From IMG/VR virus record IMGVR_UViG_3300031658_003088, positions 1 to 26,329 of that record: 26,329 nt of DNA; one strand, 5' to 3'. Below the pieces are notes generated by a model, which saw nothing but the letters and a program-made list of their open reading frames with translations, had not been told where the DNA came from and did not search any database. The translations under genes were made by a program, and so were the position numbers. Shown piece by piece: positions 8,503 through 19,759 of the stretch. The stretch's first letter is position 1; each line of letters begins with the position of its first letter. The stretch comes from a virus.

Positions 8503-9093
8503 ATGTTTATAATAGAGAATAAAAATGGTGAAAAAGTAGACACCTGGAACTCAAATAAAAATCCAATATGGCCTGATGGTACATCTATGTCAGGTAAAGC
8601 TCCTGATGGGTTTAAGCGTTTAGATTTTACTGTCCGCGAAGTTAAAGAAATAACTGAAGGTGAGGGTACTCGTGCTCTTGGTTTCAGGGGACCTGAAAAG
8701 GTTAATGGTAATTGGCAGAGAGTCAGATTAAAGGGCCCCGCTCTACCCCCACCACCTGAGCCTGCACCTGGTGATGCAGGGTACGATTATGTACAATTAC
8801 GTAAGCAAGAATTTGATAAAAATATTCCTGCTGGTGATCAAGCAGATTCCCTATTAAAATGGGCAGTTGCTATTAGAATGAAGCAATCTACAGTCGCTAC
8901 GGCAATTGACAACCTAGCTATTGATGTAGCAGTCGATCCTGATGGGTTAGTAGCAGATGTTATTACATTGAATACCGACAGTTTAGATGGTTTAAAATTG
9001 GCTCTTACCCCTATCTTTGATTTACCTTCTGACCTGGATGCTATTGTTGGTAAGTGGACAGCAGTGAAAGCAAAGTTCCCTAAGCCTGAGTAG
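8503..9093 (+). CDS. Fibre-associated or fibre-chaperone-like protein
   Basis: The protein has 196 residues and its ATG touches the TAA of the large fibre gene; AAGGAG at 8488-8493 precedes it. The N-terminal 80 residues are mixed beta with WPDGTSMSGKAPDGF. A proline-rich linker PALPPPPEPAPGDAG (around 84-98) separates this from a helical C-terminal half with YDYVQLRKQEFDKNIPAGDQ and DSLLKWAVAIRMKQS. Placement immediately after a fibre gene, plus a linker and a helical tail, resembles tail fibre assembly proteins, but I see no diagnostic motif and it could be a structural adapter. Confidence 0.55.
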   Translation: MFIIENKNGEKVDTWNSNKNPIWPDGTSMSGKAPDGFKRLDFTVREVKEITEGEGTRALGFRGPEKVNGNWQRVRLKGPALPPPPEPAPGDAGYDYVQLRKQEFDKNIPAGDQADSLLKWAVAIRMKQSTVATAIDNLAIDVAVDPDGLVADVITLNTDSLDGLKLALTPIFDLPSDLDAIVGKWTAVKAKFPKPE

Positions 9094-9107
9094 TAGGAGA
9101 ATAAGTT

Positions 9108-9200
9108 ATGATGCAAGGATTAACATTATCAATGGGTGAATTTATAATCATCGGTCTTCTAGTTATAAATATTATTATAACTATAAGAAGTCGTAAGTAA
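9108..9200 (+). CDS. Small single-pass membrane protein (30 aa)
   Basis: This 30-residue open frame has a strong AGGAG at 9095-9099, eight bases before the ATG, and fits the 108-base space between two genes. After MMQGLTLSMGEF there is a run of about 14 hydrophobic residues (IIIGLLVINIIITI), then a basic end RSRK, so it is a single membrane span with a cytoplasmic positive tail. It may belong to the group of small membrane proteins that continues to 11408, which includes the lysis genes. Holin-like or lysis-modulator roles are possible but not shown. Confidence 0.6.
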   Translation: MMQGLTLSMGEFIIIGLLVINIIITIRSRK

Positions 9201-9201
9201 C

Positions 9202-9786
9202 ATGGTCGTAGCAGAAACAATGCTGGTCTTCTCAGCCGTAAAAGGTGCTGTCGATCTGTGTAGATCAGCTGTCGATACCTGTGAAGATGTTCAAGGTATC
9301 TACCAAGGCATTGACCAGTTATTCTCTTCTAAAGATGCGGCAGAGAAGGTACTTGCTGGAGAGAAGAGGAAGAGTAAGAAGAAACCTAAGAGTAAGATGC
9401 ATCAAATCTTTACTAGGGCCACGAACGAAGATGAAGATGATGACTTATCTATAGGTGCCATTGCCGCTATGGTTCTAGAGCAGAAGAAGCTAGACCGTGA
9501 GATAGAGAACTTAGGCATCCGTATTGACAACCGCTTCGGTGAGGGAACCTGGCAAGAGATACTAGACATAAGAGAAGAGAAGATTGCTGAACGTAAGCAA
9601 GAAGAGAAAGACGCTGAGATTGCCAGAGACATAGCCAAGAATGATAAGGCTCTAGGTGGAGAAGATGGTCAAGATAAGATCATTCGGTATATGTTAGAGG
9701 CACTTAAGTTGTGTTTAATTATAGGTTTAGCTTATGCAGTCATAGCCTATGTATGGGCTAACAGATGTGTGGAGACAACTTGCTAA
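9202..9786 (+). CDS. Coiled-coil protein with C-terminal membrane anchor
   Basis: The protein has 194 residues. The N-terminus (MVVAETMLVFSAVKGAVDLC) is followed by DVQGIYQGIDQLFSSKDAAEK, then a lysine-rich stretch near 55-66. Residues about 85-155 are highly charged and helical, with DNRFGEGTWQEILDIREEK, likely a coiled coil. A membrane span near 170-188 (LCLIIGLAYAVIAYVWA) precedes a short tail with two cysteines. I recall the MVVAE..LVFSAVKGAVD start and RFGEG.W.EIL..REE segment from proteins of unknown role in marine podoviruses. The stop TAA overlaps the following ATG. Confidence 0.7.
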   Translation: MVVAETMLVFSAVKGAVDLCRSAVDTCEDVQGIYQGIDQLFSSKDAAEKVLAGEKRKSKKKPKSKMHQIFTRATNEDEDDDLSIGAIAAMVLEQKKLDREIENLGIRIDNRFGEGTWQEILDIREEKIAERKQEEKDAEIARDIAKNDKALGGEDGQDKIIRYMLEALKLCLIIGLAYAVIAYVWANRCVETTC

Positions 9787-9983
9787 TGATTAAAGGAAAA
9801 ACAGTAATGGAATTATCCGCTGACCTGGAAGGTTATGAAAAGTTGTCCACAGAAAGGAACAAGAATATCGAGCTACAATTCTCAGGTGTTAACGCCAGAT
9901 TGAAACGTCTTGAAGTTATCTTGATGTCTACTACTGGAGCTATAATACTAATGCTACTTGGTCTGGTCTTTAGGGTAACGTAA
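9786..9983 (+). CDS. Small XhlA-like membrane protein
   Basis: The ATG at 9786 shares a base with the upstream TAA and gives 65 residues; the ATG at 9807, with AAAGG before it, is a possible shorter start (58 residues). The sequence has a charged helical N-terminal half (MELSADLEGYEKLSTERNK) and VNARLKRLEVIL, then one membrane span (TTGAIILMLLGLVFRV). A short coiled coil with an 'RLKRLE' helix followed by a C-terminal anchor resembles XhlA-type haemolysin/holin-accessory proteins. Its place within a run of membrane proteins just before the lysis genes fits. Function is inferred only. Confidence 0.6.
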   Translation: MIKGKTVMELSADLEGYEKLSTERNKNIELQFSGVNARLKRLEVILMSTTGAIILMLLGLVFRVT

Positions 9984-10321
9984 TGCCTGAGATTGAATTA
10001 CCTCAGAGCTGGGTCGTTTGGGTGGGTTTCATTATCACCGTTACGGTTGGCCTAGCAATAAGAGACTGGGCGGCTGATGTAGTCGCAGCCTTCAAATGGA
10101 AGACAACACCGGGGTTTGAACCCATGGACACCGCCATTCTAGACGGCGAGAAGGTAGTCATAATAGCTATTGGTATACGCGATACAATCTTTGAAAGTAG
10201 TGGGCAGTTTGGACGCACATGGCGGTACATTCCTAGTAGTCAGATTGTTAAACATGACCTCAGAAGAGTAGTGGGTGACGATAGGATGTTGGATCACAAG
10301 ATAAATGGAGGAGAATTATAA
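9983..10321 (+). CDS. Membrane-anchored protein, unknown function
   Basis: The protein has 112 residues. It starts MPEIELPQSWVVWVGF and has one N-terminal membrane span (about residues 10-28, VVWVGFIITVTVGLAIRDW). A soluble domain follows, with GEKVVIIAIGIRDTIFE, TWRYIPSSQIVKHDLRR and VVGDDRMLDHKING. The soluble part alternates strands and looks folded. The start overlaps the previous TAA (TAATG) and the stop TAA overlaps the next ATG in the same way. Neither a lysis nor a virion role can be shown from sequence. Confidence 0.65.
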   Translation: MPEIELPQSWVVWVGFIITVTVGLAIRDWAADVVAAFKWKTTPGFEPMDTAILDGEKVVIIAIGIRDTIFESSGQFGRTWRYIPSSQIVKHDLRRVVGDDRMLDHKINGGEL

Positions 10322-10497
10322 TGCCATATGGACCTGGAACTTACGGATCGAAAGTGGGCAGACCCCCGAAGCCTAAAGCAAAGACCAAGCCTCTGGACAA
10401 TAGGTATTATAGTGCTTTAGGAGAGCAACATGAAAAAAGTATATGCAGGATTAGCAGGGATTGGCGTAATTGTTGGTATATTAACGGGCTGGTTTGA
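10321..10497 (+). CDS. Small basic protein of the MPYGxGTYGxKxGRP type
   Basis: This 58-residue frame begins MPYGPGTYGSKVGRPPKPK, a start I recognise from very short basic proteins encoded by many bacteriophages, usually next to structural or lysis genes. GGAGGAG at 10307-10313, seven bases before the ATG, is one of the strongest ribosome binding sites in the window. The last 68 bases overlap the next gene in another frame, so residues after about 36 may be less constrained. The Lys/Pro/Arg-rich N-terminal half could bind nucleic acid or membrane. Function is unknown. Confidence 0.65.
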   Translation: MPYGPGTYGSKVGRPPKPKAKTKPLDNRYYSALGEQHEKSICRISRDWRNCWYINGLV

Positions 10498-10735
10498 GTT
10501 TGCCCAATATCCCCCGTATGCAACAGCGGCTGAAGCTAAAGAGATACGTAAAATTGCTAGAACAGCTAAACAACAAGCCTTTGAAAATAGAGTAGACAGT
10601 CAACAAAATCGGGTGATTGCCTATGAGACTCACATCGATACAGTCGGGGCGACACCCGAGCGCAAACAACGGTTGCGTGAGTTAAACACTATCTTAGATA
10701 AATTCACGCAACAAAAGAATAGGTCTTACAAATGA
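10430..10735 (+). CDS. Membrane-anchored helical protein, possibly lysis-associated
   Basis: This 101-residue protein has an N-terminal membrane segment (VYAGLAGIGVIVGILTGW) followed by a polar helical region rich in Lys, Gln, Glu and Arg (AEAKEIRKIARTAKQQAFEN, RKQRLRELNTILDKF). The topology, a single N-terminal anchor and a long periplasmic helix, resembles an i-spanin, but a better Rz/Rz1 pair lies downstream. TAGGAG at 10419-10424 precedes the ATG. The stop TGA overlaps the ATG of the endolysin gene by four bases, tying it to the lysis operon. Confidence 0.65.
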   Translation: MKKVYAGLAGIGVIVGILTGWFEFAQYPPYATAAEAKEIRKIARTAKQQAFENRVDSQQNRVIAYETHIDTVGATPERKQRLRELNTILDKFTQQKNRSYK

Positions 10736-11187
10736 GTAGCTACGGCACATCCTCCAAAGAAAGACTTGCAACCTGTAGTCAAAATATACAGGCTGTTATG
10801 TATGGTGTTATTGAATGTCTCCCTTGGACAGACCCAGTATCTGGCATCACTATTGATGACTGCACTATAATTGAAGGGCACCGGAATGAGTTTCGACAAA
10901 ATTATTTGTACGACACCAAAAAATCTAAAGCTAGATATCCGGACTCAAGACATAACAAATTACCAAGTGATGCCGTTGACGCTGCACCCTATCATGCGAC
11001 AGCACCTCATATCCATTGGAATGATAAAGAAGAATTTATTGCCTTTGGAAGATTAGTTAAGCAGGTATCTGAGGCTTTAGAGATTAATATACGTTCCGGT
11101 ACCGATTGGAATCAGAATGGCATTAGCGTGGATAAAGATCCACATGAGTCATTTTTTGATGGCCCGCATCATGAAGAGGTATTGTAA
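10732..11187 (+). CDS. Endolysin, M15 (VanY/L-Ala-D-Glu endopeptidase-like) peptidase
   Basis: The protein has 151 residues. The order is SSKERLATCSQNIQAVMYGV at the N-terminus, IIEGHRNEFRQNYLY (46-60), SRHNKLPSDAVDAAPY (72-87), IHWNDKEEFIAFGRLV, IRSGTDWNQNG (120-130) and FFDGPHHEEV at the end. This is the M15 zinc peptidase layout; H74, D83 and H146 are the expected zinc ligands. Such enzymes cut peptide bonds in the peptidoglycan stem during lysis. Relatives usually have 'DxPHFE' at the third ligand, here DGPHHE. There is no signal peptide, so release would need the holin. The TAA overlaps the ATG of the holin candidate. Confidence 0.85.
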   Translation: MSSYGTSSKERLATCSQNIQAVMYGVIECLPWTDPVSGITIDDCTIIEGHRNEFRQNYLYDTKKSKARYPDSRHNKLPSDAVDAAPYHATAPHIHWNDKEEFIAFGRLVKQVSEALEINIRSGTDWNQNGISVDKDPHESFFDGPHHEEVL

Positions 11188-11408
11188 TGACAACTCCTAA
11201 AAAACCACCACCCAAATCATATAAACGTGAAGTAGCCTGGTGTCTTCTAGGGGTTACCTTACTGATGATCATTAAGCTCTTCGTGTACACTGAGGACCCA
11301 AAGCTTGCTACTGCCCTCACAACAGCCTTTAATGGCTGGGTATTAGTGTCTATTCCCACTGCTATGGCAGCTTTTGGGCTTCACTCATGGCAAAATAAGG
11401 ATAAATGA
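11187..11408 (+). CDS. Holin candidate (two membrane spans)
   Basis: The 73-residue protein has a short basic, proline-rich N-terminus (TTPKKPPPKSYKRE). Two hydrophobic segments follow, about residues 16-33 (VAWCLLGVTLLMIIKLFV) and 46-65 (FNGWVLVSIPTAMAAFGL), and then a polar tail SWQNKDK. Size, charge and two spans fit a class II holin that releases the endolysin. Its start overlaps the endolysin stop by one base and the Rz start overlaps its stop by four bases, which is the usual lysis-cassette arrangement. Confidence 0.7.
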   Translation: MTTPKKPPPKSYKREVAWCLLGVTLLMIIKLFVYTEDPKLATALTTAFNGWVLVSIPTAMAAFGLHSWQNKDK

Positions 11409-11896
11409 TGACCAAGATCCTCGTAATCACTATCATCGTTCTAGGGGGCGCCTTAACCCTTGCAACCGAACTTTGGCTAAGTGCTCGGGATGATTTAGCT
11501 AAGAATCAGGTAAAATTAGATGATGCTAATGCTGAAACAATTAAACAAAAATTACAAAATACTCTATTAAAGTTAGAGGCAGCCAAGGCAATAGGCCAAA
11601 TTACTGTTATGGCCGAGGAGAGGAAAAATGATGCTATACGTTATCAAACAGAACTTAATAGAATTAACAGTCGCCTCGTCAGTTCTAAAAAAGCGGCTAC
11701 GGAACACCCTGAACGTTACGGTGCTATTGCTACTTTCCGTATCCGTCGTGGGATGCGAGACATTTGTAGGAGTGGAGAAGGCTCTCCCGACACCTGTAAA
11801 ATTAAAAGTGTACGTCCCGCCAAGGCCAGCACCAGTTATCCCCGTAAATTTGACGTTATCCCAGGTAAACAATCAAGTAGCAAAGCAATTAAGTGA
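11405..11896 (+). CDS. Rz: i-spanin, Rz-like inner-membrane subunit
   Basis: This 163-residue protein has one N-terminal membrane span (ILVITIIVLGGALTLATELWL). A long periplasmic helix follows, rich in Asp, Lys, Asn and Glu (ARDDLAKNQVKLDDANAE, KQKLQNTLLKLEAAKA, AEERKNDAIRYQTEL), and a basic, less structured C-terminus. This is i-spanin topology: it spans the periplasm and pairs with an outer-membrane lipoprotein to fuse the two membranes at lysis. The o-spanin gene starts inside it in the +1 frame at 11628, as in many Rz/Rz1 pairs. The ATG overlaps the holin stop. Confidence 0.8.
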   Translation: MMTKILVITIIVLGGALTLATELWLSARDDLAKNQVKLDDANAETIKQKLQNTLLKLEAAKAIGQITVMAEERKNDAIRYQTELNRINSRLVSSKKAATEHPERYGAIATFRIRRGMRDICRSGEGSPDTCKIKSVRPAKASTSYPRKFDVIPGKQSSSKAIK

Positions 11897-12032
11897 AGAC
11901 GGAATAGCCTTTGATTACACGGCTATGAGCATTGAAGATGGTTCTCTTCTTATGACTTGGTTAGCAGCAATTAAGAATAACCAAAGAGCTTGGGCTAATT
12001 ACGCTAAATATTGGGAAGACAAATTTAAATAG
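11628..12032 (+). CDS. Rz1: o-spanin, Rz1-like outer-membrane lipoprotein (nested start)
   Basis: The ATG at 11628 follows GAGGAG (11615-11620) inside the Rz gene and reads in the +1 frame; it continues 136 bases beyond the Rz stop. Residues 26-43 form a signal peptide ending in a lipobox VVGC, with Cys43 as the lipidated residue. A proline-rich segment follows (ALPTPVKLKVYVPPRPAP), typical of Rz1. At 134 residues it is longer than the classic lambda Rz1, with a C-terminal helical domain (SLLMTWLAAIKNNQRAWANY) that resembles longer o-spanin variants. The 25-residue polar lead before the hydrophobic core is unusual. Confidence 0.8.
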   Translation: MMLYVIKQNLIELTVASSVLKKRLRNTLNVTVLLLLSVSVVGCETFVGVEKALPTPVKLKVYVPPRPAPVIPVNLTLSQVNNQVAKQLSEDGIAFDYTAMSIEDGSLLMTWLAAIKNNQRAWANYAKYWEDKFK

Positions 12033-12040
12033 GAATATAC

Positions 12041-12535
12041 TTATGACTTTTCTTCTGATGACATTAACCGTTTTTCTAGGTTCCTCAACTCGTGCGTTAG
12101 TCGGTTCTGGACGTAGTCTTTTTCCAAAGCCGGTGACTTATCTGCTCGCGTCTGTACTGTGCGCCAGTATTGGATTAGGTCTCGCTCCATCTCCGTCAGC
12201 CATCCATCTACTAGCTGCTCTTTGGGCAGCACTGGCTGTGACTGTAAGCTTGTCAGCTGGCTATACGAATTGGGAGAAGACTGCTGTAATGCTGCCACGG
12301 CTGGCAATACCGAGCTTATTTGTTGTAATGCCGCTAATGTATACGATTGGAATTCATCTAAATTTTCTAATTTATGTGCTATTTTCGATAGGTGTCGCAC
12401 TACTATACCCACGCCGAGAAGCTGCTTATCAATATCTACTGGCTCTGAAGATTCCGTACTATTGGCAGTGGGTTGCCGATCCCGTTGATCCGGCAATAGT
12501 CCATCGGAAGTTACGTCTGTATACGCCATTTTCAT
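12041..12535 (-). CDS. Hydrophilic protein A-minus, antisense to a membrane-protein gene
   Basis: The 164-residue hydrophilic protein is the last gene of the minus-strand operon. It has no signal or membrane segment; the middle is Gln/Ser-rich and helical (LAALQQISSVLPAVAALQQS). The C-terminal third has QPVLPKE and ERDLIQYWRTVQTRADK. The minus-strand gene at 13154-13636 has QPELPKE and EVALIQHLRSEGLSADK at the same spacing, so the two look like paralogues. Purine-rich AGAAGAG precedes the start. The whole gene lies opposite the plus-strand frame 12043-12630, with codon position 1 opposite position 1; its TAA stop shares a base with that frame's ATG. Function is unknown. Confidence 0.6.
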   Translation of the reverse strand: MKMAYTDVTSDGLLPDQRDRQPTANSTESSEPVDIDKQLLGVGIVVRHLSKIAHKLENLDEFQSYTLAALQQISSVLPAVAALQQSSPNSYSQLTSLQSQPVLPKEQLVDGWLTEMERDLIQYWRTVQTRADKSPALEKDYVQNRLTHELRNLEKRLMSSEEKS

Positions 12536-12630
12536 TTTTCTCTTCTAGTGATTTTTGGGATAGCGCAAGGTTAGCTGAGTGTGCCTCAGGAGCTGCTCAT
12601 ATTGGGCTATTACCTATATTATTTATATAG
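12043..12630 (+). CDS. Polytopic membrane protein A-plus, end of the lysis operon
   Basis: This 195-residue protein follows the Rz1 stop by 10 bases with AGGA at 12031-12034. It is strongly hydrophobic, with about four membrane spans (residues 2-15, 30-48, 53-71 and 88-118). The motif FLGSSTRALVGSG near the N-terminus and PLMYTIG...LLYPRR in the second half also occur, diverged, in the plus-strand frame at 13123-13638 (LLGGSARSFVGTG, PLVYLFG, LFYPHR). It resembles small phage membrane proteins with an N-terminal span followed by a GSG/GR loop, of unknown role; a lysis-related role is possible from position. The last 60 residues lack a counterpart in the second copy. It overlaps the minus-strand gene A almost entirely. 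Confidence 0.65.
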   Translation: MTFLLMTLTVFLGSSTRALVGSGRSLFPKPVTYLLASVLCASIGLGLAPSPSAIHLLAALWAALAVTVSLSAGYTNWEKTAVMLPRLAIPSLFVVMPLMYTIGIHLNFLIYVLFSIGVALLYPRREAAYQYLLALKIPYYWQWVADPVDPAIVHRKLRLYTPFSFFSSSDFWDSARLAECASGAAHIGLLPILFI

Positions 12631-12799
12631 AATTACCGGTCCATACGTTAGCAGTTTTACAGGTTTTACACACCCGATTGCCTGAATGAGTTGAGGTAAA
12701 CACCTCAAAGCATGAAAGGCATTTTCTACGTAATGTCTTATATTGGTATGCTATTTCTGCATCAGGATCAGTAGGTCTTTTACTATATGGCATTGGCAT
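12623..12799 (-). CDS. Small zinc-ribbon-like protein (58 aa)
   Basis: Reading the minus strand from ATG at 12799 gives 58 residues. The sequence has KCLSCFEVF and RVCKTCKTANVW, i.e. two CxxC pairs 13 residues apart with a basic N-terminal half (KRPTDPDAEIAYQYKTLRRK). This is a typical short zinc ribbon of the type seen in phage proteins with 'RxCLxCxxxF...GNRxCxxC'. It may bind nucleic acid or RNA polymerase, but that is inference. AAGGAGA lies 12 bases before the ATG, a rather long spacing. It converges with the plus-strand frame ending at 12630, overlapping by eight bases. Confidence 0.7.
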   Translation of the reverse strand: MPMPYSKRPTDPDAEIAYQYKTLRRKCLSCFEVFTSTHSGNRVCKTCKTANVWTGNSI

Positions 12800-12803
12800 A
12801 ATG

Positions 12804-12986
12804 TTATTTAATCTCCTTACAAGTCGCCTTATCTTTAGGTAGTTTTAGCTTTTGATCTACCTTACGATAAAAGCTAATATTATAGTTATCCATTGCCTGA
12901 TGACATTCAAATATATCTTCGAATTGAATAGTTACTGCATATGGGAAATGAAGGCCAATTATGATGGTTAATATAGCAGGGGTCAT
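12804..12986 (-). CDS. Small secreted or membrane-anchored protein (60 aa)
   Basis: The 60-residue protein starts MTPAILTIIIGLHFPYAVTI, a hydrophobic N-terminal segment that could be a signal peptide or anchor, followed by a polar domain with two cysteines (FECHQAMDNYN, KATCKEIK) that could form a disulfide in the periplasm. AGGAG lies about 11 bases before the ATG on the minus strand. The start overlaps the stop of the previous minus-strand gene by four bases (ATGA), so it is part of the same operon. Function is unknown; an inhibitor or a superinfection-exclusion peptide would have this shape. Confidence 0.65.
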   Translation of the reverse strand: MTPAILTIIIGLHFPYAVTIQFEDIFECHQAMDNYNISFYRKVDQKLKLPKDKATCKEIK

Positions 12987-13141
12987 GATAAGGTTTCTCT
13001 CCTTTTTGTAATAACATACTCATCTATTTCTAAATGATCGTATGGGCAATTATCAATATTACAGGGCATTGTTTGGGGGTAAGGTTTATCTCGTCGTTTT
13101 AGCCGTATTGTGCATAGCTCGCATGTACTGCGTCTTGGCAT
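12983..13141 (-). CDS. Small cysteine-rich basic protein (52 aa)
   Basis: Reading the minus strand from ATG at 13141 gives 52 residues. There is a CELC pair near the N-terminus, then CNIDNC in the middle, between basic segments (RLKRRDKPYP, TKRRETLS), suggesting metal binding. AGGGA lies about nine bases upstream of the ATG, and the preceding minus-strand gene ends 12 bases before it. Its TGA overlaps the ATG of the next gene (ATGA). These operon features make it a likely real gene despite its size. The 5' part also lies opposite the start region of the plus-strand frame at 13123. Function is unknown. Confidence 0.6.
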   Translation of the reverse strand: MPRRSTCELCTIRLKRRDKPYPQTMPCNIDNCPYDHLEIDEYVITKRRETLS

Positions 13142-13638
13142 TTGTAATTTCCCTTATGTTTCTTTTAGGAGGGTCGGCCAGATCGTTTGTAGGTACAGGC
13201 TCCGGTCCACGTTGGCTAGGTAGGTGGTCAGTTTATCCGCCGATAGCCCTTCTGAGCGCAAGTGTTGGATTAACGCCACCTCTTGAGTGGACATATAACC
13301 TAGACCAATTACTCCTTCTTTGGGTAGCTCTGGTTGCTTCTCTAAATCTGGCGATGGGGTGGACGAAGTTACTCGATCAATATCTGCCTCAATGGCTCGG
13401 TTATGTTTGTCGATACGTTCTTGGTGATCCAAAGTGGGATCAAAAACATCAGTCTTATGCTTGGGATTGGGATCATGGTCGGTGGATGGCCGTAAGGTTA
13501 CTGCCTTCGCTAGTGTGTATAAGCCCTCTCGTATATCTATTCGGCCAATTATCTCAGGGGGCGATTTCATATATGGTTCTGTCTCTGATAGCTGGACTAT
13601 TCTATCCACATCGTCAAAGAGTGTTTGGTCAGTCATAG
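13123..13638 (+). CDS. Polytopic membrane protein B-plus, antisense to the minus operon
   Basis: This frame encodes 171 residues from ATG 13123; ATGs at 13042 and 13156 are also possible and none has a good ribosome binding site, which weakens the call. The protein is hydrophobic with about four spans. It is similar to the plus-strand protein at 12043-12630: LLGGSARSFVGTG, LSASVGL, LLLLWVALVASLNLAMGWT, LPSL.....PLVY and LFYPHR have counterparts in order. Several shared residues use quite different codons (R as AGA versus CGT, S as TCG versus AGC), a sign of selection on this protein frame. It covers the whole minus-strand gene 13154-13636. It may be expressed weakly, or be a decaying copy. 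Confidence 0.5.
   Translation: MYCVLAFVISLMFLLGGSARSFVGTGSGPRWLGRWSVYPPIALLSASVGLTPPLEWTYNLDQLLLLWVALVASLNLAMGWTKLLDQYLPQWLGYVCRYVLGDPKWDQKHQSYAWDWDHGRWMAVRLLPSLVCISPLVYLFGQLSQGAISYMVLSLIAGLFYPHRQRVFGQS
13154..13636 (-). CDS. Hydrophilic protein B-minus, paralogue of the 12041-12535 product
   Basis: This 160-residue protein starts MTDQTLFDDVDRIVQLSE and is soluble, acidic at the N-terminus with a charged, proline-containing middle (LRPSTDHDPNPKHKTDVFD). The C-terminal part has QPELPKE and ALIQHLRSEGLSADK, matching A-minus. AGGA sits seven bases before the ATG, and the previous minus-strand gene ends ten bases upstream, so its place in the operon is well supported. The gene is fully opposite the plus-strand membrane-protein frame, in the same 1-to-1 codon phase as the other pair. 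I do not recognise a domain. Function is unknown. Confidence 0.75.
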   Translation of the reverse strand: MTDQTLFDDVDRIVQLSETEPYMKSPPEIIGRIDIREGLYTLAKAVTLRPSTDHDPNPKHKTDVFDPTLDHQERIDKHNRAIEADIDRVTSSTPSPDLEKQPELPKEGVIGLGYMSTQEVALIQHLRSEGLSADKLTTYLANVDRSLYLQTIWPTLLKET

Positions 13639-13646
13639 CCTAATCC

Positions 13647-13841
13647 TCATTTTTGCTTTGTGTGATCAAATACTTCAGTTGAATCATAGAAGTCTTGTAA
13701 TCGCTTAATAAGATGTTTAGCTGTACCTCTACTAATCGTACCATTTACTAGGCATACCCCATTCTCACCATGGACATAATGGGTGCACCGAGTATCCCCG
13801 TGTTGATGCACAAACATAGGAAATATACGAGGTTCAGTCAT
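13647..13841 (-). CDS. Small His/Cys-containing protein (64 aa)
   Basis: The ATG at 13841 gives 64 residues; a TTG seven codons upstream is less likely. The ATG overlaps the end of the previous minus-strand gene by eight bases. The first half has FVHQHGDTRCTHYVHGENGVC, with several His and two Cys that could bind a metal, followed by a helical segment RGTAKHLIKRLQDFYDST. There is no membrane segment. The sequence looks like one compact strand-rich domain plus a helix. I do not recognise the family. Its stop is ten bases before the start of the next minus-strand gene. Confidence 0.65.
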   Translation of the reverse strand: MTEPRIFPMFVHQHGDTRCTHYVHGENGVCLVNGTISRGTAKHLIKRLQDFYDSTEVFDHTKQK

Positions 13842-13944
13842 CTTTAAAACTATCCTGATCAATCAGCATCCTGACTCTGACCATAGTTGCGGTCTCTCTT
13901 TCAAATTGCTGTATTACTTTTTCAATTCTCTCAGCTTCAGTCAT
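13834..13944 (-). CDS. Very small helical protein (36 aa)
   Basis: Reading the minus strand from 13944 gives 36 residues beginning MTEAERIEKVIQQFERE and ending in an acidic tail. It is likely one amphipathic helix. AGGA lies eight bases before the ATG. The start overlaps the upstream stop by four bases (ATGA) and the stop overlaps the next ATG by eight bases. The ordered overlaps on both sides support it as a coding gene. Confidence 0.55.
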   Translation of the reverse strand: MTEAERIEKVIQQFERETATMVRVRMLIDQDSFKDD

Positions 13945-14057
13945 ACAATGATTCCTATTTGAGCTAAGGCCCTACGGCAGACCTCTACATATGATTTACT
14001 ATTTGTACGCCAGTTTGTGGTGACATACACGCACTCAGATTCCTGGGCTCTAGTCAT
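13941..14057 (-). CDS. Very small protein (38 aa)
   Basis: Reading the minus strand from 14057 gives 38 residues: MTRAQESECVYVTTNWRTN, then a helix-like YVEVCRRALAQIGIIV. It has two cysteines and a hydrophobic C-terminus. Its ATG lies inside the last eight bases of the upstream gene, and its TGA overlaps the next ATG by four bases. There is no recognisable family. The overlaps on both sides are the main evidence. Confidence 0.5.
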   Translation of the reverse strand: MTRAQESECVYVTTNWRTNSKSYVEVCRRALAQIGIIV

Positions 14058-14352
14058 GACTATCACACCAATTTTCATAAGCAGTTTCAGCTAAATCCTC
14101 TAAAAATAATGTGAAGTAAGGGGGGATAACTACTGTTATACCAGAAGCATGCCTAACCCATAAATCTGATAGATCCATCTTATGATGGTCCTCAGTAGTT
14201 ACGAGAATTATCTCAGCACTGCCTGCTTCAGCTGGGTAACATTCAGAAGGTTCTCCGTATAGTTTACCAGGGGTTGGTTCAGTAATCTCAGACTCTACCT
14301 GGATAGGCTGACCTGATGGCAATTCATATTCAAACGAATAAGATATTGTCAT
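14050..14352 (-). CDS. Conserved-looking acidic phage protein, first gene of the minus operon
   Basis: This 100-residue acidic protein starts MTISYSFEYELPSGQPIQVE, with beta-strand pattern, then EPSECYPAEAGSAEIILVTT and a helical C-terminal third (FTLFLEDLAETAYENW). The 'FEYELPSG' opening and the 'YPAEAGSxEI' segment recall a family of short hypothetical proteins found in many phages. TAGGAG lies about six bases before the ATG. It is the most upstream gene of the minus-strand operon and is divergent from the ACP gene, with 67 bases between the two starts. Function is unknown. Confidence 0.7.
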   Translation of the reverse strand: MTISYSFEYELPSGQPIQVESEITEPTPGKLYGEPSECYPAEAGSAEIILVTTEDHHKMDLSDLWVRHASGITVVIPPYFTLFLEDLAETAYENWCDSHD

Positions 14353-14419
14353 TTCATTCTCCTAAGTGTTATTCTTTAATAAATCCAATTTTATTAGCTA
14401 TTAACCATAAGGTGTTAAG
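14353..14419. promoter_or_regulatory. Divergent intergenic region between the minus operon and the ACP gene
   Basis: This is the only divergent gap in the window: 67 AT-rich bases between minus-strand ATG 14352 and plus-strand ATG 14420. It must hold the start signals for the minus operon unless that operon is read from elsewhere. On the minus strand TTAACA followed 16 bases later by TAATAA is a weak promoter candidate. On the plus strand only AAGGTG (14409-14414) as ribosome binding site is clear. Confidence 0.4.
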
Positions 14420-14746
14420 ATGTCATCAACTGAATTTAATTTTACAGATGAAGAATTTCTAACCGTTATTAATTTAATGTGCAAAATGGACATGCCTGCA
14501 GGTAAAGAGTTTATTCCTGTGGCGCACATGGAAGAATTACTTAATGCCGAACGATTGGATAGCTTGGGCATTGTGGTGTTCTTTATTTGGATATCTGAGT
14601 TGTTTGGTATACCTGAGTCAGATGTAGCAGAATTTGCCCAAATAGAGGAGCTCACTCCTCGAGCAATAAAAGACTTTGTTATTGCTAATTGTACGCAAAC
14701 GTACGCTTACGCTGATGCAGAGGAGTTTGCTAAAAAATGTTTATAA
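14420..14746 (+). CDS. Acyl carrier protein-like protein
   Basis: This acidic 108-residue protein is predicted helical. Residues 45-68 read ERLDSLGIVVFFIWISELFGIP, matching the ACP core: a DSL motif whose Ser48 is the expected phosphopantetheine site, followed by helix II and the 'E.FGI' turn. EELTPRAIKDFVI is in place of helix IV. It is longer than a standard 75-80 residue ACP, with a 20-residue N-terminal lead and a C-terminal helix. Holo-ACP would carry acyl chains as thioesters; host holo-ACP synthase would be needed. AAGGTG precedes the ATG. The ketoacyl synthase gene starts ten bases before its end, a clear functional pair. Confidence 0.8.
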   Translation: MSSTEFNFTDEEFLTVINLMCKMDMPAGKEFIPVAHMEELLNAERLDSLGIVVFFIWISELFGIPESDVAEFAQIEELTPRAIKDFVIANCTQTYAYADAEEFAKKCL

Positions 14747-15747
14747 CCCACACAAACTCAGTATATTCTGAAGAGATAACTCTATTAGATCATTTACCAT
14801 GGCCCCAATATGTACACCAGGTAGCCAATGGTGGAGGCATGGTTGTCGAGCGCGGTATTAAGACAATGCCTGCTGAGCTCATTGATTATGTACTTAAAGG
14901 CAAGCATGGAGCCGCTGAAGGCACTGTCGAATTCATTCAAGAGCTATTAGCTACAAATGCCAGAGTTGGCCTTATACTGGCTGCAGGTGGCACCAGCTGG
15001 ACAGGGTACACCTCAAATATTCCCCGAACAGACAAATACCCAATATGTAAGGTTCCTCCTATGGGCGCCACACAAGTGTTTGCTGGGTATCTTGCTAACC
15101 GGTTAGGTTCTTTTGAATACATATCCACGGACTGCACCAGCTGCATTAGTGGGCACTCCGCCTGGTATACAGCCAATAATATGCTTAAATTAGGCCTCTT
15201 AGATGCCATGGTAGTCATCTCCTCAGACAATGGGCTTTCTGAAGAATACTTAGCAATATTTGGTGAACACGGTTTATCTAAATCAGTAGAAGAAGAAGAT
15301 ACTGATATAGTTAAATTCCGAGTAGGCCATGGGTGTAACATAACTATATTTGAAGGCGTTAACCACTTAGCAGCAGTTAAGCGTGACCCAATAGCAATAG
15401 TAACTGATATGCATTTAGCAGCTGAAACGCATGTTAACCCTTTAGGAATATCAGATACTGGTGCCGGGTATGAGAAGGTGATTACTGCTGTAGATACCAC
15501 CGGCATTGACTTTGTTAAGACTCACAGTACATTCTCTGAGGATAATAAAGTGGAAGAAAAGTTAGTTAAAGCTGCCTTTGGTGATATTAGATTAGTTAAT
15601 TATAAACTACGTATTGGCCATACCATGGGGTCTTCTACTGCGATAGAGACTGCTTTAGCTATCCAAGAAGAACAAGGTAAGTTCCTTAGTTTAGGTGCAG
15701 GCATGGGTAATGTATTTTCATCGGCCGTAGTGGAGATTATTAAATGA
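14737..15747 (+). CDS. Compact beta-ketoacyl-ACP synthase (KAS I/II-like thiolase fold)
   Basis: The 336-residue protein is shorter than FabB/FabF (about 410). YISTDCTSCISGHSAWY (128-144) matches the nucleophile region, with C133 at the place of the KAS cysteine. FRVGHGCNITIFEGVNHLAA matches the 'GEGA..LVLE...HA' region. VKTHSTFSEDN (260-270) matches the 'HGTSTP.ND' loop with H263. NYKLRIGHTMGSSTAIE (288-304) matches 'K...GH..GA.G..E' with K290 and H295. So a Cys-His-His triad appears complete. KAS enzymes condense malonyl-ACP with an acyl chain. AGGAG at 14721-14725 lies in the ACP gene. Substrate is unknown; the C-terminal glycine loop is GAGMGN instead of FGFGGTN. Confidence 0.82.
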   Translation: MFITHTNSVYSEEITLLDHLPWPQYVHQVANGGGMVVERGIKTMPAELIDYVLKGKHGAAEGTVEFIQELLATNARVGLILAAGGTSWTGYTSNIPRTDKYPICKVPPMGATQVFAGYLANRLGSFEYISTDCTSCISGHSAWYTANNMLKLGLLDAMVVISSDNGLSEEYLAIFGEHGLSKSVEEEDTDIVKFRVGHGCNITIFEGVNHLAAVKRDPIAIVTDMHLAAETHVNPLGISDTGAGYEKVITAVDTTGIDFVKTHSTFSEDNKVEEKLVKAAFGDIRLVNYKLRIGHTMGSSTAIETALAIQEEQGKFLSLGAGMGNVFSSAVVEIIK

Positions 15748-16091
15748 TATTCAAACACTGTAGTTTAATCCAAGAAGGGGGATCAGTCCTATTTTATAGA
15801 TTTAACCGCCCTCTTAATGGATATATGATAGCCGGGCTATTCATAGCTCCTAATATTGAGGATAAGTTATGCTTTGCTAAAATATGGAAATACTTTGTAT
15901 CTGAAGTAGTTAGAGGAGATGACATATATTGCTCAGTAGCCCTCGGGGTAGAGAATCCTATGTTTGATAGTTACTTAGAATTCTATAAGGAAATTGATGG
16001 TCTTAAAATTTATAAGGTTGATAATTTTCTTAAAGATCAATATAGTTCGTACACTCACCATAAAGTAACGCATGGCCTTAGGCGGGAATAA
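15744..16091 (+). CDS. Unknown protein of the ACP-synthase operon
   Basis: This 115-residue protein begins at an ATG overlapping the synthase stop by four bases, with GGAG at 15732-15735, and ends one base before the portal ATG. The N-terminal part alternates strands (GGSVLFYRFNRPLNGYMIAGLF), then helix-like CFAKIWKYFVSEVVRGDD and strand IYCSVALGV. NPMFDSYLEFYKEIDGLKIY follows and the tail is basic. The alpha/beta pattern with 'N.M...YL.FYK..G' at the end is reminiscent of a small GNAT-type acyltransferase, which would fit the acyl context, but no acyl-CoA loop (RxxGxG) is visible. I leave the function open. Confidence 0.65.
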   Translation: MIFKHCSLIQEGGSVLFYRFNRPLNGYMIAGLFIAPNIEDKLCFAKIWKYFVSEVVRGDDIYCSVALGVENPMFDSYLEFYKEIDGLKIYKVDNFLKDQYSSYTHHKVTHGLRRE

Positions 16092-18182
16092 ATGAGCGAT
16101 CTTATTAAAGATGATGGTGGAGATACCACTGAAATTGATGTCACTACATTAGTGGATTGGGAAAATCCCCCTAAGCTAGCTGACTTAAAGCATGATTTAG
16201 AGTCTGCTCAGTCAGCCCATAAAGCTCACGTTATGGAAGTTGACGCCTGGCTTGCTGTTCTTAAGGGCGAGCAAATCATTAACTCTAAGACCGGTAGATC
16301 TAAACTTGTACCTAAATTGGTACGTAAGCAGGCAGAATGGCGTTATGCTGCGCTATCAGAACCTTTCTTATCTACCGATGACCTATTTAACACATCCCCC
16401 TCTACATTCGAAGATAAAGAAACAGCAGAACAAAATGGTATGCTGTTAAATTATCAGCTTAACTGTCGTATTGATAAAGTGGACTTTGTTGATACTTATG
16501 TTCGCACGGCTGTAGATGAAGGCACTGTAGTTGTTCGTGTTGGTTGGGAGTTCGAAGAAGCTAAGCGTAAAGTATACACCCCTGTTATGGAACCTAGAAT
16601 GGTGCCTGGCCCTGATGGCCAGCCCCAAATGGACCCAGAAACTGGCGTACCTCTTATGGAGGAGGTTAAGGTTGGTGAGACATCTGCAATGAAGATGGTC
16701 ACTATTAAGAATCAACCTGAATTAACCGTATGTGACTATAACAATTTAGTGTTAGATCCCACTTGCCAGGGAGACATAGATAAAGCTGGTTTTGGTGTTT
16801 ATAGTTTTGAGACCTCGTTATCCGAGCTCAAAAAAGATGGCCGGTATAAGAATTTAGATGATGTTAACTTTGAGACTGCTTCTGTATTAGCTGAGCCAGA
16901 TCATAAGATTAAATCTGATGACACTGCCTTCACCTTTCAAGATAAAGCCCGTAAAAAAGTAGTTGCCCGGGAATACTGGGGGTCATGGGATATCCATGAT
17001 ACTGGCGAAGTAGTACCCTTTGTGGCTGCCTGGATAGGCAGCACTTTAATTAGATTAGAAGAAAACCCATATCCTGATAAGAAACTTCCATTTGTGTTAG
17101 TTCAGTACTTACCTCGCCGTAAGAATGTGTATGGTGAGCCTGACGCTGAGCTTATTGAAGACAATCAAAAGATTGTAGGAGCTGTAACCCGTGGTATCAT
17201 TGATATTATTGGACGTAGTGCCAATGGCCAACAAGGTATCCGGAAGGATGCTTTGGATGTTACTAACGCCCGTAAGTTTGATCGGGGTGATGATTATAAA
17301 TTTAATGCTCAGGTAGATCCTAAGCAGGCCTTCCACATGGAAGTGTACCCCGAGATTCCTAGATCAGCTCTCGAAGTACTAGATATGCAAAATAATGACG
17401 CTGAGGCCCTCACAGGCGTTAAGGCGTTCACTAATGGCATTTCTGGCCAAGCCTTAGGAACTACGGCTACTGGTATACGCTCTGCTCTAGACGCTACCTC
17501 TAAGCGTGAGCTAGGCATACTTCGTCGGCTATCAAATGGGTTTAATAAGATTGGCCGTAAGATTATCTCTATGAATTCTGAATTCTTAGATGAAAAAGAA
17601 ATTATTCGTATTACCAATGAAGAGCTTATAGCTATCGATCGTAATGATCTTGGTGGCAAATATGATATTAAACTTAACATTTCTACTGCTGAAGCAGATG
17701 AGCAGAAAGCCAGTGAATTAGCATTCATGTTGCAAACCACTGGTAATAGTATGCCTATAGAAGTTACCCAGATGATCCTATCTGACATTGCTAAGTTACG
17801 TAAGATGCCTGAGTTAGCTAAGCGTATGGCAGAGTTTAAGCCTGAACCTGATCCGTTAGCCCAGAAGAAAGCTGAACTTGAAATAGCATTGTTAGAAGCA
17901 CAAGTGTTTAATGAACAAGCTAAAGGTGAAGAAAACAAGGTGGATGTTGGCCTCAAGACAGCTAAGACAGCTACTGAAGAGGCTAAGACACGCAATATGA
18001 ATAGCGATTCTGATGGTAAGGATCTTGACTTTGTTGAGAAAGAATCTGGTGTTGCTAATGCTCGAGAAACTGAAGCTAATAATAACAAACACGCCCAAGC
18101 CATGGAAGGTAAAGAGCACGATAGGTTAAGTAATCTTGACAGCCAAGCTCTTACCGAGTTAAATAAACCTAACAAAACTTAA
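16092..18182 (+). CDS. Portal protein (head-tail connector)
   Basis: The 696-residue protein is of P22/N4-like portal size. The N-terminal region has KGEQIINSKTGRSKLVPKLV, WRYAALSEPFLSTDDLF and YQLNCRIDKVDFVDTYVRTA; the centre has AREYWGSWD, LPFVLVQYLPRRKNVYGEPD and LIEDNQKIVGAVTRGIIDII. Near residues 455-480 is TATGIRSALDATSKRELGIL, a helical segment conserved in large short-tailed-phage portals. The C-terminal 130 residues are charged coiled coil (LEIALLEAQVFNEQAKGEEN), the region that forms the barrel in related portals. The dodecameric ring seats terminase and DNA. The ATG follows the previous TAA directly; AGGCGGG is the ribosome binding site. Confidence 0.88.
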   Translation: MSDLIKDDGGDTTEIDVTTLVDWENPPKLADLKHDLESAQSAHKAHVMEVDAWLAVLKGEQIINSKTGRSKLVPKLVRKQAEWRYAALSEPFLSTDDLFNTSPSTFEDKETAEQNGMLLNYQLNCRIDKVDFVDTYVRTAVDEGTVVVRVGWEFEEAKRKVYTPVMEPRMVPGPDGQPQMDPETGVPLMEEVKVGETSAMKMVTIKNQPELTVCDYNNLVLDPTCQGDIDKAGFGVYSFETSLSELKKDGRYKNLDDVNFETASVLAEPDHKIKSDDTAFTFQDKARKKVVAREYWGSWDIHDTGEVVPFVAAWIGSTLIRLEENPYPDKKLPFVLVQYLPRRKNVYGEPDAELIEDNQKIVGAVTRGIIDIIGRSANGQQGIRKDALDVTNARKFDRGDDYKFNAQVDPKQAFHMEVYPEIPRSALEVLDMQNNDAEALTGVKAFTNGISGQALGTTATGIRSALDATSKRELGILRRLSNGFNKIGRKIISMNSEFLDEKEIIRITNEELIAIDRNDLGGKYDIKLNISTAEADEQKASELAFMLQTTGNSMPIEVTQMILSDIAKLRKMPELAKRMAEFKPEPDPLAQKKAELEIALLEAQVFNEQAKGEENKVDVGLKTAKTATEEAKTRNMNSDSDGKDLDFVEKESGVANARETEANNNKHAQAMEGKEHDRLSNLDSQALTELNKPNKT

Positions 18183-18215
18183 CAATTTAACACTTAACTC
18201 ATAAGGTATTTGATA

Positions 18216-18563
18216 ATGACTGATTTAGAACAAGTAGAAATTCAGATTGAAGTAGCTAATACTATGCGCAAATTGCGCGACAACGCAATTAAGCTGATGG
18301 ACAACAAATTGTTTAAAGATGTCATTGGTGAAGGCTATTTTAAAGAAGAGGCTGCCCGGTTGGTTATGGCTAAAAGTGCAAGCCTGGCGCCAGAACATGA
18401 GAAGTTGATCGATAATATGATTTATGGAGTCGGTGCTTTGAATAATTATCTTGATGCTATTGTAGAGCGCGGCAGACAAATGGACGCAGCTATCGGTGAG
18501 CATGAAGAGACTCGTGATGAAATACTGGCCGAAGAGATGGCTCAAGCGGAGGGATCAGCCTAA
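18216..18563 (+). CDS. Small helical virion-assembly protein between portal and scaffold
   Basis: The ATG at 18216 has AAGG nine bases upstream; a TTG two codons earlier is less likely. The 115-residue protein is acidic and almost wholly helical: MRKLRDNAIKLMDNKLF, EGYFKEEAARLVMAKSASL, NMIYGVGALNNYLDAIVERG, with an acidic tail. A protein of this size and composition is commonly found between portal and scaffold in short-tailed marine phages, but its role is not known to me. The stop shares one base with the scaffold ATG, so expression is coupled to assembly genes. Confidence 0.7.
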   Translation: MTDLEQVEIQIEVANTMRKLRDNAIKLMDNKLFKDVIGEGYFKEEAARLVMAKSASLAPEHEKLIDNMIYGVGALNNYLDAIVERGRQMDAAIGEHEETRDEILAEEMAQAEGSA

Positions 18564-19759
18564 TGGCAGATAGTTCCTTAGCGTTATCAGATGCAGAATT
18601 TATGGAACAAGCCCCTCCAGCTGATGAAGTTGAAGAGGCCCCTGCGGAAGCAGGAGAAGTCGTGGATATTGAAAAAGAAGCTGCGGCAGAAGAAATTACC
18701 TCCTCAGACAATCTAGAAATAGAATCTGAGGATGAAGAGGCCTTAGCTGCGCAAGCAGCTGAGGATAGTGAAGCACAGGAGGACCCTGATGCTGTTGCTG
18801 GTGAAGGAGAATTAGGCCAACCTGAGGGGGATACCTCTAAGGAGCACGAAACTTCCGATGATAGTGATGACACAGAATCTCTTGATACTAGTGAGAAAGA
18901 CTCGCCTGACACGAAAGCTGATAAGCCGGATACAACAGAGTTTGATTACGAAAGTGCGTATAAGAAGGTATCTGAACCTTTCAAGGCCAATGGCGTTGAT
19001 ATGCAAGTTAAGGATCCTCAAGATATCGTTCGTCTAATGCAGATGGGCGCTAATTATCAAAAGAAGATGGCTTCGTTGAAGCCTAACCTTAAGATAATTA
19101 GTACATTAGAAAAAAATGGACTCCTCGATGAGGATAAGTTAAATCAGCTAATTGATATATCTAATAAAGATCCTAAAGCAATCGCTAAGCTAGTTAAAGA
19201 AAGTGGGCTAGATCCTGAAGATATCGATGAAGATGCGTCGAATGACTATCGACCTAATGATCATTCGGTTTCTGACAAAGAGTTTAACTTAGATCAAGTG
19301 TTAGACGGCATTAAGGATACTGAGACCTTCAGCAAAACTATCAATGTTTTAACGAAGGAATGGGATGGAGACAGTAAAGCTGCTATCTCTGATAATCCCG
19401 AAATTATCAGTATTATTAATGAGCATATGCTCAACGGAGTATACGATAAAGTTAATACGGTAATGCAGCAGGAGAAGACGTTAGGTAAACTAACTGGCGT
19501 TTCTGATGTTGATGCGTATAGACAAATCGCCGAACAATTGCATAAAAGTGGAATTCTTAAAGAAGATACCAGTGATTCAAAGGAAGGTAGTTCAGGAGAT
19601 ACATCTAATGTATCGAGTGAAACTGAACAAGCTAAGGCTGAGCGTGATAAAGCACGTAAAGCAGTAGCGCCGGTTAAGCAGACTACAACCCAGAAGGCCA
19701 AGCCTGATGGGGATTTCTTAGGTTTATCTGACGATGAATTTATGAAGAAGTATGGTTAG
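18563..19759 (+). CDS. Capsid scaffolding protein
   Basis: The 398-residue protein is strongly acidic. The first 130 residues are mostly Glu, Asp, Ala and Ser with little hydrophobic content, and the rest is helical (SEPFKANGVDMQVKDPQDIV, LMQMGANYQKKMASLKP, VNTVMQQEKTLGKL). A basic stretch (RDKARKAVAPVKQTTTQKAK) precedes a short hydrophobic acidic end, FLGLSDDEFMKKYG; in scaffolds, such a basic C-terminal helix-turn region contacts the capsid protein. It lies directly before the major capsid gene, the standard position. Interestingly the start has LALSDAEFMEQ, echoing the LSDDEFMKK end. Confidence 0.85.
   Translation: MADSSLALSDAEFMEQAPPADEVEEAPAEAGEVVDIEKEAAAEEITSSDNLEIESEDEEALAAQAAEDSEAQEDPDAVAGEGELGQPEGDTSKEHETSDDSDDTESLDTSEKDSPDTKADKPDTTEFDYESAYKKVSEPFKANGVDMQVKDPQDIVRLMQMGANYQKKMASLKPNLKIISTLEKNGLLDEDKLNQLIDISNKDPKAIAKLVKESGLDPEDIDEDASNDYRPNDHSVSDKEFNLDQVLDGIKDTETFSKTINVLTKEWDGDSKAAISDNPEIISIINEHMLNGVYDKVNTVMQQEKTLGKLTGVSDVDAYRQIAEQLHKSGILKEDTSDSKEGSSGDTSNVSSETEQAKAERDKARKAVAPVKQTTTQKAKPDGDFLGLSDDEFMKKYG

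Follow-up and report, generated by a model that had tools for sequence, protein, structure and literature searches.

Does one stretch of phage DNA encode two proteins here, one on each strand, or is one of the two frames open without meaning? A first-pass annotation of the window (the whole 26,329-nt stretch analysed, a virus record from a virus of bacteria known from environmental DNA alone) had proposed a gene on both strands at a site that we call locus A. Antisense overlaps of this kind are contested, since an isolated example can be put down to a frame that happens to be open. We found a second, diverged copy of the overlap in the same window, locus B. Two diverged copies provide an internal control, in that either frame can be examined with its partner held fixed, and judging from the sequence the second copy makes genes on both strands likely. 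Our preferred reading, which we hold to be fairly probable, is that a single unit of overlapping sense and antisense genes in an N4-like phage gave rise to both A and B, which have since diverged.

Locus A and its setting

The large terminase (1322-2920) and the portal (16092-18182) both pointed to N4-like phages. The terminase matched 478 of 50,697 phage records, with a best identity of 59.4%, and the portal matched 484 of the 50,697, with a best identity of 53.9%. The late genes follow the order terminase, tail, lysis, portal and capsid, in outline agreement with the 8 N4-like records compared. By portal and terminase homology and late gene order, the phage is N4-like (Schitoviridae type). 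The 26-kb record is a fragment and stops short of the expected place of the giant virion RNA polymerase gene.

The plus strand carries the lysis run at 10430-12032, which starts with a 101-aa ORF. It comprises an endolysin (10732-11187; PHROG 465, E 2e-23), a small membrane ORF (11187-11408), an Rz-like ORF with a weak spanin match (11405-11896; E 0.4) and, nested in Rz, an ORF at 11628-12032 that we take to be Rz1 from a lipobox-like motif and from its position. The last ORF of this plus-strand run is A+ (12043-12630), which encodes a 195-aa membrane protein. It follows Rz1 as annotated, with the Rz1-like ORF ending 10 bases before the ATG and a Shine–Dalgarno (SD)-like AGGA (12035-12038, plus strand; predicted duplex -4.2 kcal/mol) in between.

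After the lysis run comes a minus-strand run of small ORFs (12041-14352), of which A- (12041-12535; alternative ATG at 12529) is the last and encodes an acidic, hydrophilic protein of 164 aa. Other members, with the predicted SD energy at each start, are a 58-aa Cys-rich ORF at 12623-12799 (-9.2, start 12799) and ORFs at 12804-12986 (-8.7, start 12986), 12983-13141 (-5.3, start 13141), 13647-13862 (-4.1, start 13862) and 14050-14352 (-7.3, start 14352). The Cys-rich ORF, next to A- on the same strand, belongs by similarity to PHROG 13335 (E 1.8e-6), a family whose function is not known.

The coordinates and lengths first given for A+ and A- were exact, and the sequence reads TTATG where the minus stop TAA (12041-12043) and the plus ATG (12043-12045) have base 12043 in common. 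The overlap measures 493 nt. Its description as full-length holds for A-, of which it covers 99.6% (493/495 nt), but fails for A+, of which it covers 84% (493/588 nt), leaving 95 nt free at the 3' end. First codon positions of both frames fall at coordinates equal to 1 mod 3. As annotated, position 1 therefore faces position 1, plus position 2 faces minus position 3 and plus position 3 faces minus position 2, a phase that PMC7531306 names sas11.

This phase had also been said to leave both proteins the most freedom. Our calculation of joint coding capacity for the three antisense phases agrees, placing sas11 highest at 5.85 bits per codon, ahead of sas13 (5.70) and sas12 (4.80). Mir & Schober 2014 (PMC4182739) give a concordant result in their Table 2, where freedom is highest in frame -3 (3.12) and lowest in frame -2 (1.59). 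A third frame at locus A is also open, over 109 codons at 12159-12488 on the plus strand. That frame contains 2 stops across the A overlap and 4 across the B overlap, so that locus A is stop-poor in general.

Hydropathy of A+ predicted about five helices within the first 121 residues, and the GRAVY of A- is -0.60. AF2 models built from two-sequence alignments were of low confidence for both A+ (mean pLDDT 54) and A- (mean pLDDT 42), and a Foldseek search with the A+ model returned nothing at E 0.001 or better. No PHROGs holin, antiholin or spanin family matched A+, the best E being 0.045 to a family labelled hydrolase. It likewise had no match in Pfam or NCBIfam, and its best E in the PDB was 0.27. 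Taken together, A+, A-, B+ and B- had no usable match in PDB, Pfam, PHROG, NCBIfam or PADLOC.

A diverged second copy and similarity on both strands

Locus B lies about 1 kb downstream of locus A and repeats its arrangement. B+ (13042-13638, plus strand, 198 aa) is a paralogue of A+, with homology from about residue 35, and B- (13154-13636, minus strand, 160 aa) is a paralogue of A-, likewise acidic and hydrophilic, that lies inside B+ in the same sas11 phase and within the tight minus run. BLASTP gave E 2e-5 for A+ and B+ and E 8e-6 for A- and B-, and tblastn on the window gave 42 bits (E 1e-7) for the plus pair. We considered whether the repeat was an exact duplication of recent date or an assembly artefact, and dropped both ideas, as the two copies are too diverged.

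The presence of two diverged copies that hold the same two frames open and similar leaves next to no credibility to the idea that neither overlap is meaningful and that stop-poor DNA produced the long frames by chance, even though the third frame at 12159-12488 (109 codons) is open too and long antisense ORFs in other phases occur elsewhere in the window.

The plus and minus pairs share their DNA, so either similarity might be no more than a by-product of its counterpart. When the plus proteins were kept and their synonymous codons shuffled, the minus score of 65 was reached in 0/3000 shuffles (mean 27, maximum 51). Keeping the minus proteins instead, the plus score of 99 was also reached in 0/3000 (mean 30, maximum 68). 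Shuffles with genome codon usage gave maxima of 50 (minus) and 56 (plus), again with 0/3000 each.

Shuffling also erases shared ancestry, so real homologous genes were taken as a second null. Among segments of 100-164 codons, a sas11 antisense score of at least 65 occurred in 0/9 with sense scores of 40-90, in 0/15 with sense scores of 90-130 and in 1/43 with sense scores of 130-200. Among segments of mixed or shorter lengths, sense scores of 90-115 came with an antisense score of at least 65 in 3/313, and sense scores of 55-75 came with 99 or more in 0/151. From this null and from the position comparison below we left out L001 and L002, which are copies of the window (L002 being an identical 6.1-kb piece from sample 3300031659), together with matches under the set length and repeated gene-identity pairs. 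When A was compared with B in each of the six frames, the two that are open scored 101 and 65 and the other four 21, 45, 32 and 42. Residual DNA ancestry is thus visible (42-45 in non-coding frames), and 65 is a moderate excess.

These scores bear on a reading that we regard as unlikely, in which A+ and B+ form the sole gene family and the minus frame has no meaning, staying open through chance and the shared ancestry of the copies. The stronger plus similarity (101 versus 65) speaks for such a reading, and a minus similarity above 3000 of 3000 shuffles speaks against it. The opposite reading, with A- and B- as the sole gene family and the plus ORFs as shadows, we consider highly improbable. 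A plus similarity of 99 against a shuffle maximum of 68, equalled in 0/151 real-gene segments, argues against it.

We also compared the codon positions in a frame-neutral alignment of the A and B DNA over 110 codons, in which 42% of first, 32% of second and 43% of third plus positions differed. Plus position 2 is the most conserved, which indicates that the plus protein matters. This favours genes on the plus strand alone and speaks against genes on the minus strand alone, for which that position is the wobble base. Among 13 ordinary segments with comparable identity, the mean excess of position 3 over position 1 was 0.11, and none (0/13) had an excess of 0.01 or less; in the 20-35% class of reference segments, an excess that low was seen in 1/5. 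This reference also left out matches above 62% identity and alignments of fewer than 50 codons. The absence of a position 3 excess between A and B suggests an additional constraint on plus position 3, the base that serves as minus position 2.

Conservation beyond the other frame was scored on one A/B pair from one contig. As we found no homologue, selection could be tested on this pair only. Searches by tblastn with A+, A-, B+ and B- gave zero matches at E up to 1 in 50,697 phage records, and blastn of 10430-15747 found nothing. Scans of viral contigs with A+, B-, the A+/B+ alignment, the A-/B- alignment and the endolysin as queries yielded zero relatives; in such scans the portal found 6 loci, the terminase 65 and the ketosynthase 1, which was already in the set. 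Genome-contig scans with the A+/B+ and A-/B- alignments found none, and the A and B proteins were also negative against the 80 loci compared (tblastn and profile) and in a profile search of six viral records. By portal, the nearest distinct relative is L003 (77%), which carries other genes instead of A and B between its lysozyme-like and acyl-carrier-like ORFs. The lack of homologues and the other genes in L003 make the A/B unit look like an accessory insertion of this lineage.

Open frames, codon usage and translation signals

To gauge openness, we kept one protein and redrew synonymous codons 5000 times, either permuted within the gene or taken from genome usage. With A+ kept, the minus frame was open in 0/5000 (permuted) and 1/5000 (genome usage) redraws. 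With A- kept, the plus frame was open in 1078/5000 and 4/5000, respectively. The corresponding counts were 37/5000 and 10/5000 for the minus frame with B+ kept, and 109/5000 and 0/5000 for the plus frame with B- kept. Both frames are therefore open over the overlap beyond chance, though with permuted codons the result for A+ given A- is weak. Stops are rare in this region, so the A+ frame opens easily when A- codons are reused, and this count (1078/5000) suits a family confined to the minus strand. By contrast, if only the plus frame were a gene family, the minus frame would have had to stay open against counts of 0 and 1/5000 (A+ kept) and 37 and 10/5000 (B+ kept), despite wide divergence.

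Across 39 ORFs and the three antisense phases, sas11 stop-free stretches of at least 80 codons occurred at A and B only; the survey outside A and B listed stretches from 80 codons upward. The openness test was also positive in 3/105 ORF-phase combinations outside A and B, all of them in other phases. One is an antisense frame of about 288-289 codons opposite the portal (17309-18175, minus strand, sas12; P 0.002). Stops interrupt this frame in L003, so it is probably due to chance. Another lies opposite the ketosynthase (194 codons; P 0.003), and the third was flagged at 18210-18563, with 0/1000 for genome usage and P 0.067 for permuted codons. Since three were flagged elsewhere at P <=0.003 (genome usage), the openness test is somewhat liberal, and the case for genes is not based on openness alone.

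Opposite-strand ORF overlaps of at least 300 nt in the 80 loci compared numbered 88 in sas13, 74 in sas12 and 9 in sas11, with 6 of these 9 in one locus, L068. That related viral contig contains a 984-nt opposite-strand overlap with position 1 facing position 1 at 17212-18933, and five more such pairs. Base composition may be the cause of the sas11 overlaps in L068.

In 19 ordinary genes, the codon-usage log-odds had a mean of 0.143 and a minimum of 0.059; in the sas11 antisense readings of the same 19 genes the mean was -0.135 and the maximum -0.070. Within the overlaps the log-odds were -0.028 for A+, 0.018 for B+, -0.151 for A- and -0.161 for B-. The values of A- and B- equal those of a meaningless minus frame, and we counted this against both; resembling ordinary antisense noise, they favour genes on the plus strand only. 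In the free 3' end of A+, the log-odds are genome-like (0.300, 29 codons). This 95-nt extension past the overlap is a further point against a family encoded on the minus strand only. By the codon-usage argument set out in PMC3744397 for which of two overlapping frames is older, the plus frame is probably the older and the minus frame was probably overprinted later on the plus gene.

Predicted anti-SD energies were -4.2 for A+, -6.1 for B- and a weak -2.9 for A-. At B+ an SD was absent at the ATGs at 13042 and 13123, and the value was -1.5 at 13156. For reference, 25 ordinary plus starts averaged -5.6, and 617 other plus ATGs averaged -2.5. Signals and position thus appear reciprocal, favouring A+ at locus A and B- at locus B. 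Being well placed, A+ and B- would each support their own paralogue through homology. The proposal of a gene on both strands therefore gains from locus B, where the similarity on each strand goes beyond what the other explains, and loses from the weak SD of A- and the lack of one at B+.

The weak SD of A- is compatible with genes on the plus strand only, which would leave unexplained a well-placed B- that has an SD and fits the tight minus run, beside a B+ that has none. Genes on the minus strand only would account for the missing SD of B+ and for the position of both A- and B- within the minus run, but would leave A+, with its SD, unexplained. The same reciprocal pattern (A+ and B- with good signals and operon position, A- with weak ones and B+ lacking them) would be expected if the copies had split their roles after duplication, so that A makes only A+, B makes only B-, and A- and B+ are relics. 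We consider such a split rather improbable. At this divergence relics should hold stops, and shuffles opened A- given A+ in only 0-1/5000 and B+ given B- in 109 or 0/5000.

Scans of 9000-16200 found 1 terminator-like site against 4.8 expected from shuffles and 22 promoter-like sites against 19.5 expected. As these scans did no better than shuffles, operon borders were drawn from ORF spacing.

A candidate dual-strand unit and known overlaps

On the reading that we prefer, in which both strands of A and B carry genes, the plus frame would encode a polytopic membrane protein and the minus frame an acidic hydrophilic one. The phase sets the decisive second base of each protein on the wobble base of the other, so that one stretch of DNA can spell both a hydrophobic and a hydrophilic protein. 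Copy A sits at the meeting point of the plus lysis run and the end of the minus run; A+ would be made late as the final product of the first and A- as the final product of the second. Transcripts that cross A from the two sides would be complementary over the whole unit, so that A+ and A- are probably expressed at different times or dampen each other. We infer translation of all four ORFs. With about five predicted helices and a place after the spanin genes, A+ would by a natural guess have a late membrane role, for example in lysis timing or in blocking superinfection. A more demanding version, in which A and B form one heritable dual-strand module that was duplicated and whose four products are still made and selected at ~37% plus-strand identity, seems to us a little short of an even bet.

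Bacterial antisense overlapping genes include laoB, ano and asa. In E. coli O157:H7, a further example, the 603-bp gene pop, lies antisense to ompA (PMC7103648). Like the bacterial cases, A and B have proteins on opposite strands over several hundred bases, with one frame embedded in the other. Unlike those single overlaps, for which expression was found by experiment, the present case is in a phage, comprises two paralogous copies and is known from sequence.

Antisense overlaps are thus known in bacteria (PMC7103648), and they are annotated in phages (PMC7017920). The latter source reports annotated antisense overlaps in virus genomes, including 21/347 Podoviridae reference genomes, which resemble A and B as opposite-strand overlaps in short-tailed phages. 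Its counts, as presented, are of annotation, for overlaps of at least 50 nt and with no two-frame test, whereas here the frames were tested mutually in two copies. Our search of the open-licence literature turned up no antisense overlap that had been duplicated and kept on both strands, which is a weak negative. If confirmed, A and B would demonstrate that duplication can carry over a complete overlap that then persists, and that the antisense phase with the fewest restrictions has room for both a membrane protein and a soluble one. A+, A-, B+ and B- provide a concrete ORF set for expression tests.

The lysis region of phage N4 is described as encoding the gp60/gp60a spanins, the gp61 endolysin, the gp62 regulator and the gp63 pinholin (PMC12642591). 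The present region is similar in that an N4-like phage has nested spanins and small membrane proteins among lysis genes near the portal gene. It differs in that A+ (195 aa) is longer than N4 gp62 and gp63 (109 and 110 aa, according to that description) and has no detectable relation to any PHROG lysis family. In an N4-like Salmonella phage the lysis run is on the opposite strand to the portal, whereas here the two share a strand.

Between the minus run and the portal lie two further plus-strand ORFs. The first (14420-14746) we presume from its sequence to be acyl-carrier-protein-like. The second (14737-15747) resembles a beta-ketoacyl-ACP synthase (NCBIfam best E 1.8e-8). Both are present in L003, and the synthase-like ORF matches 1/50,697 phage records, at 28% identity.
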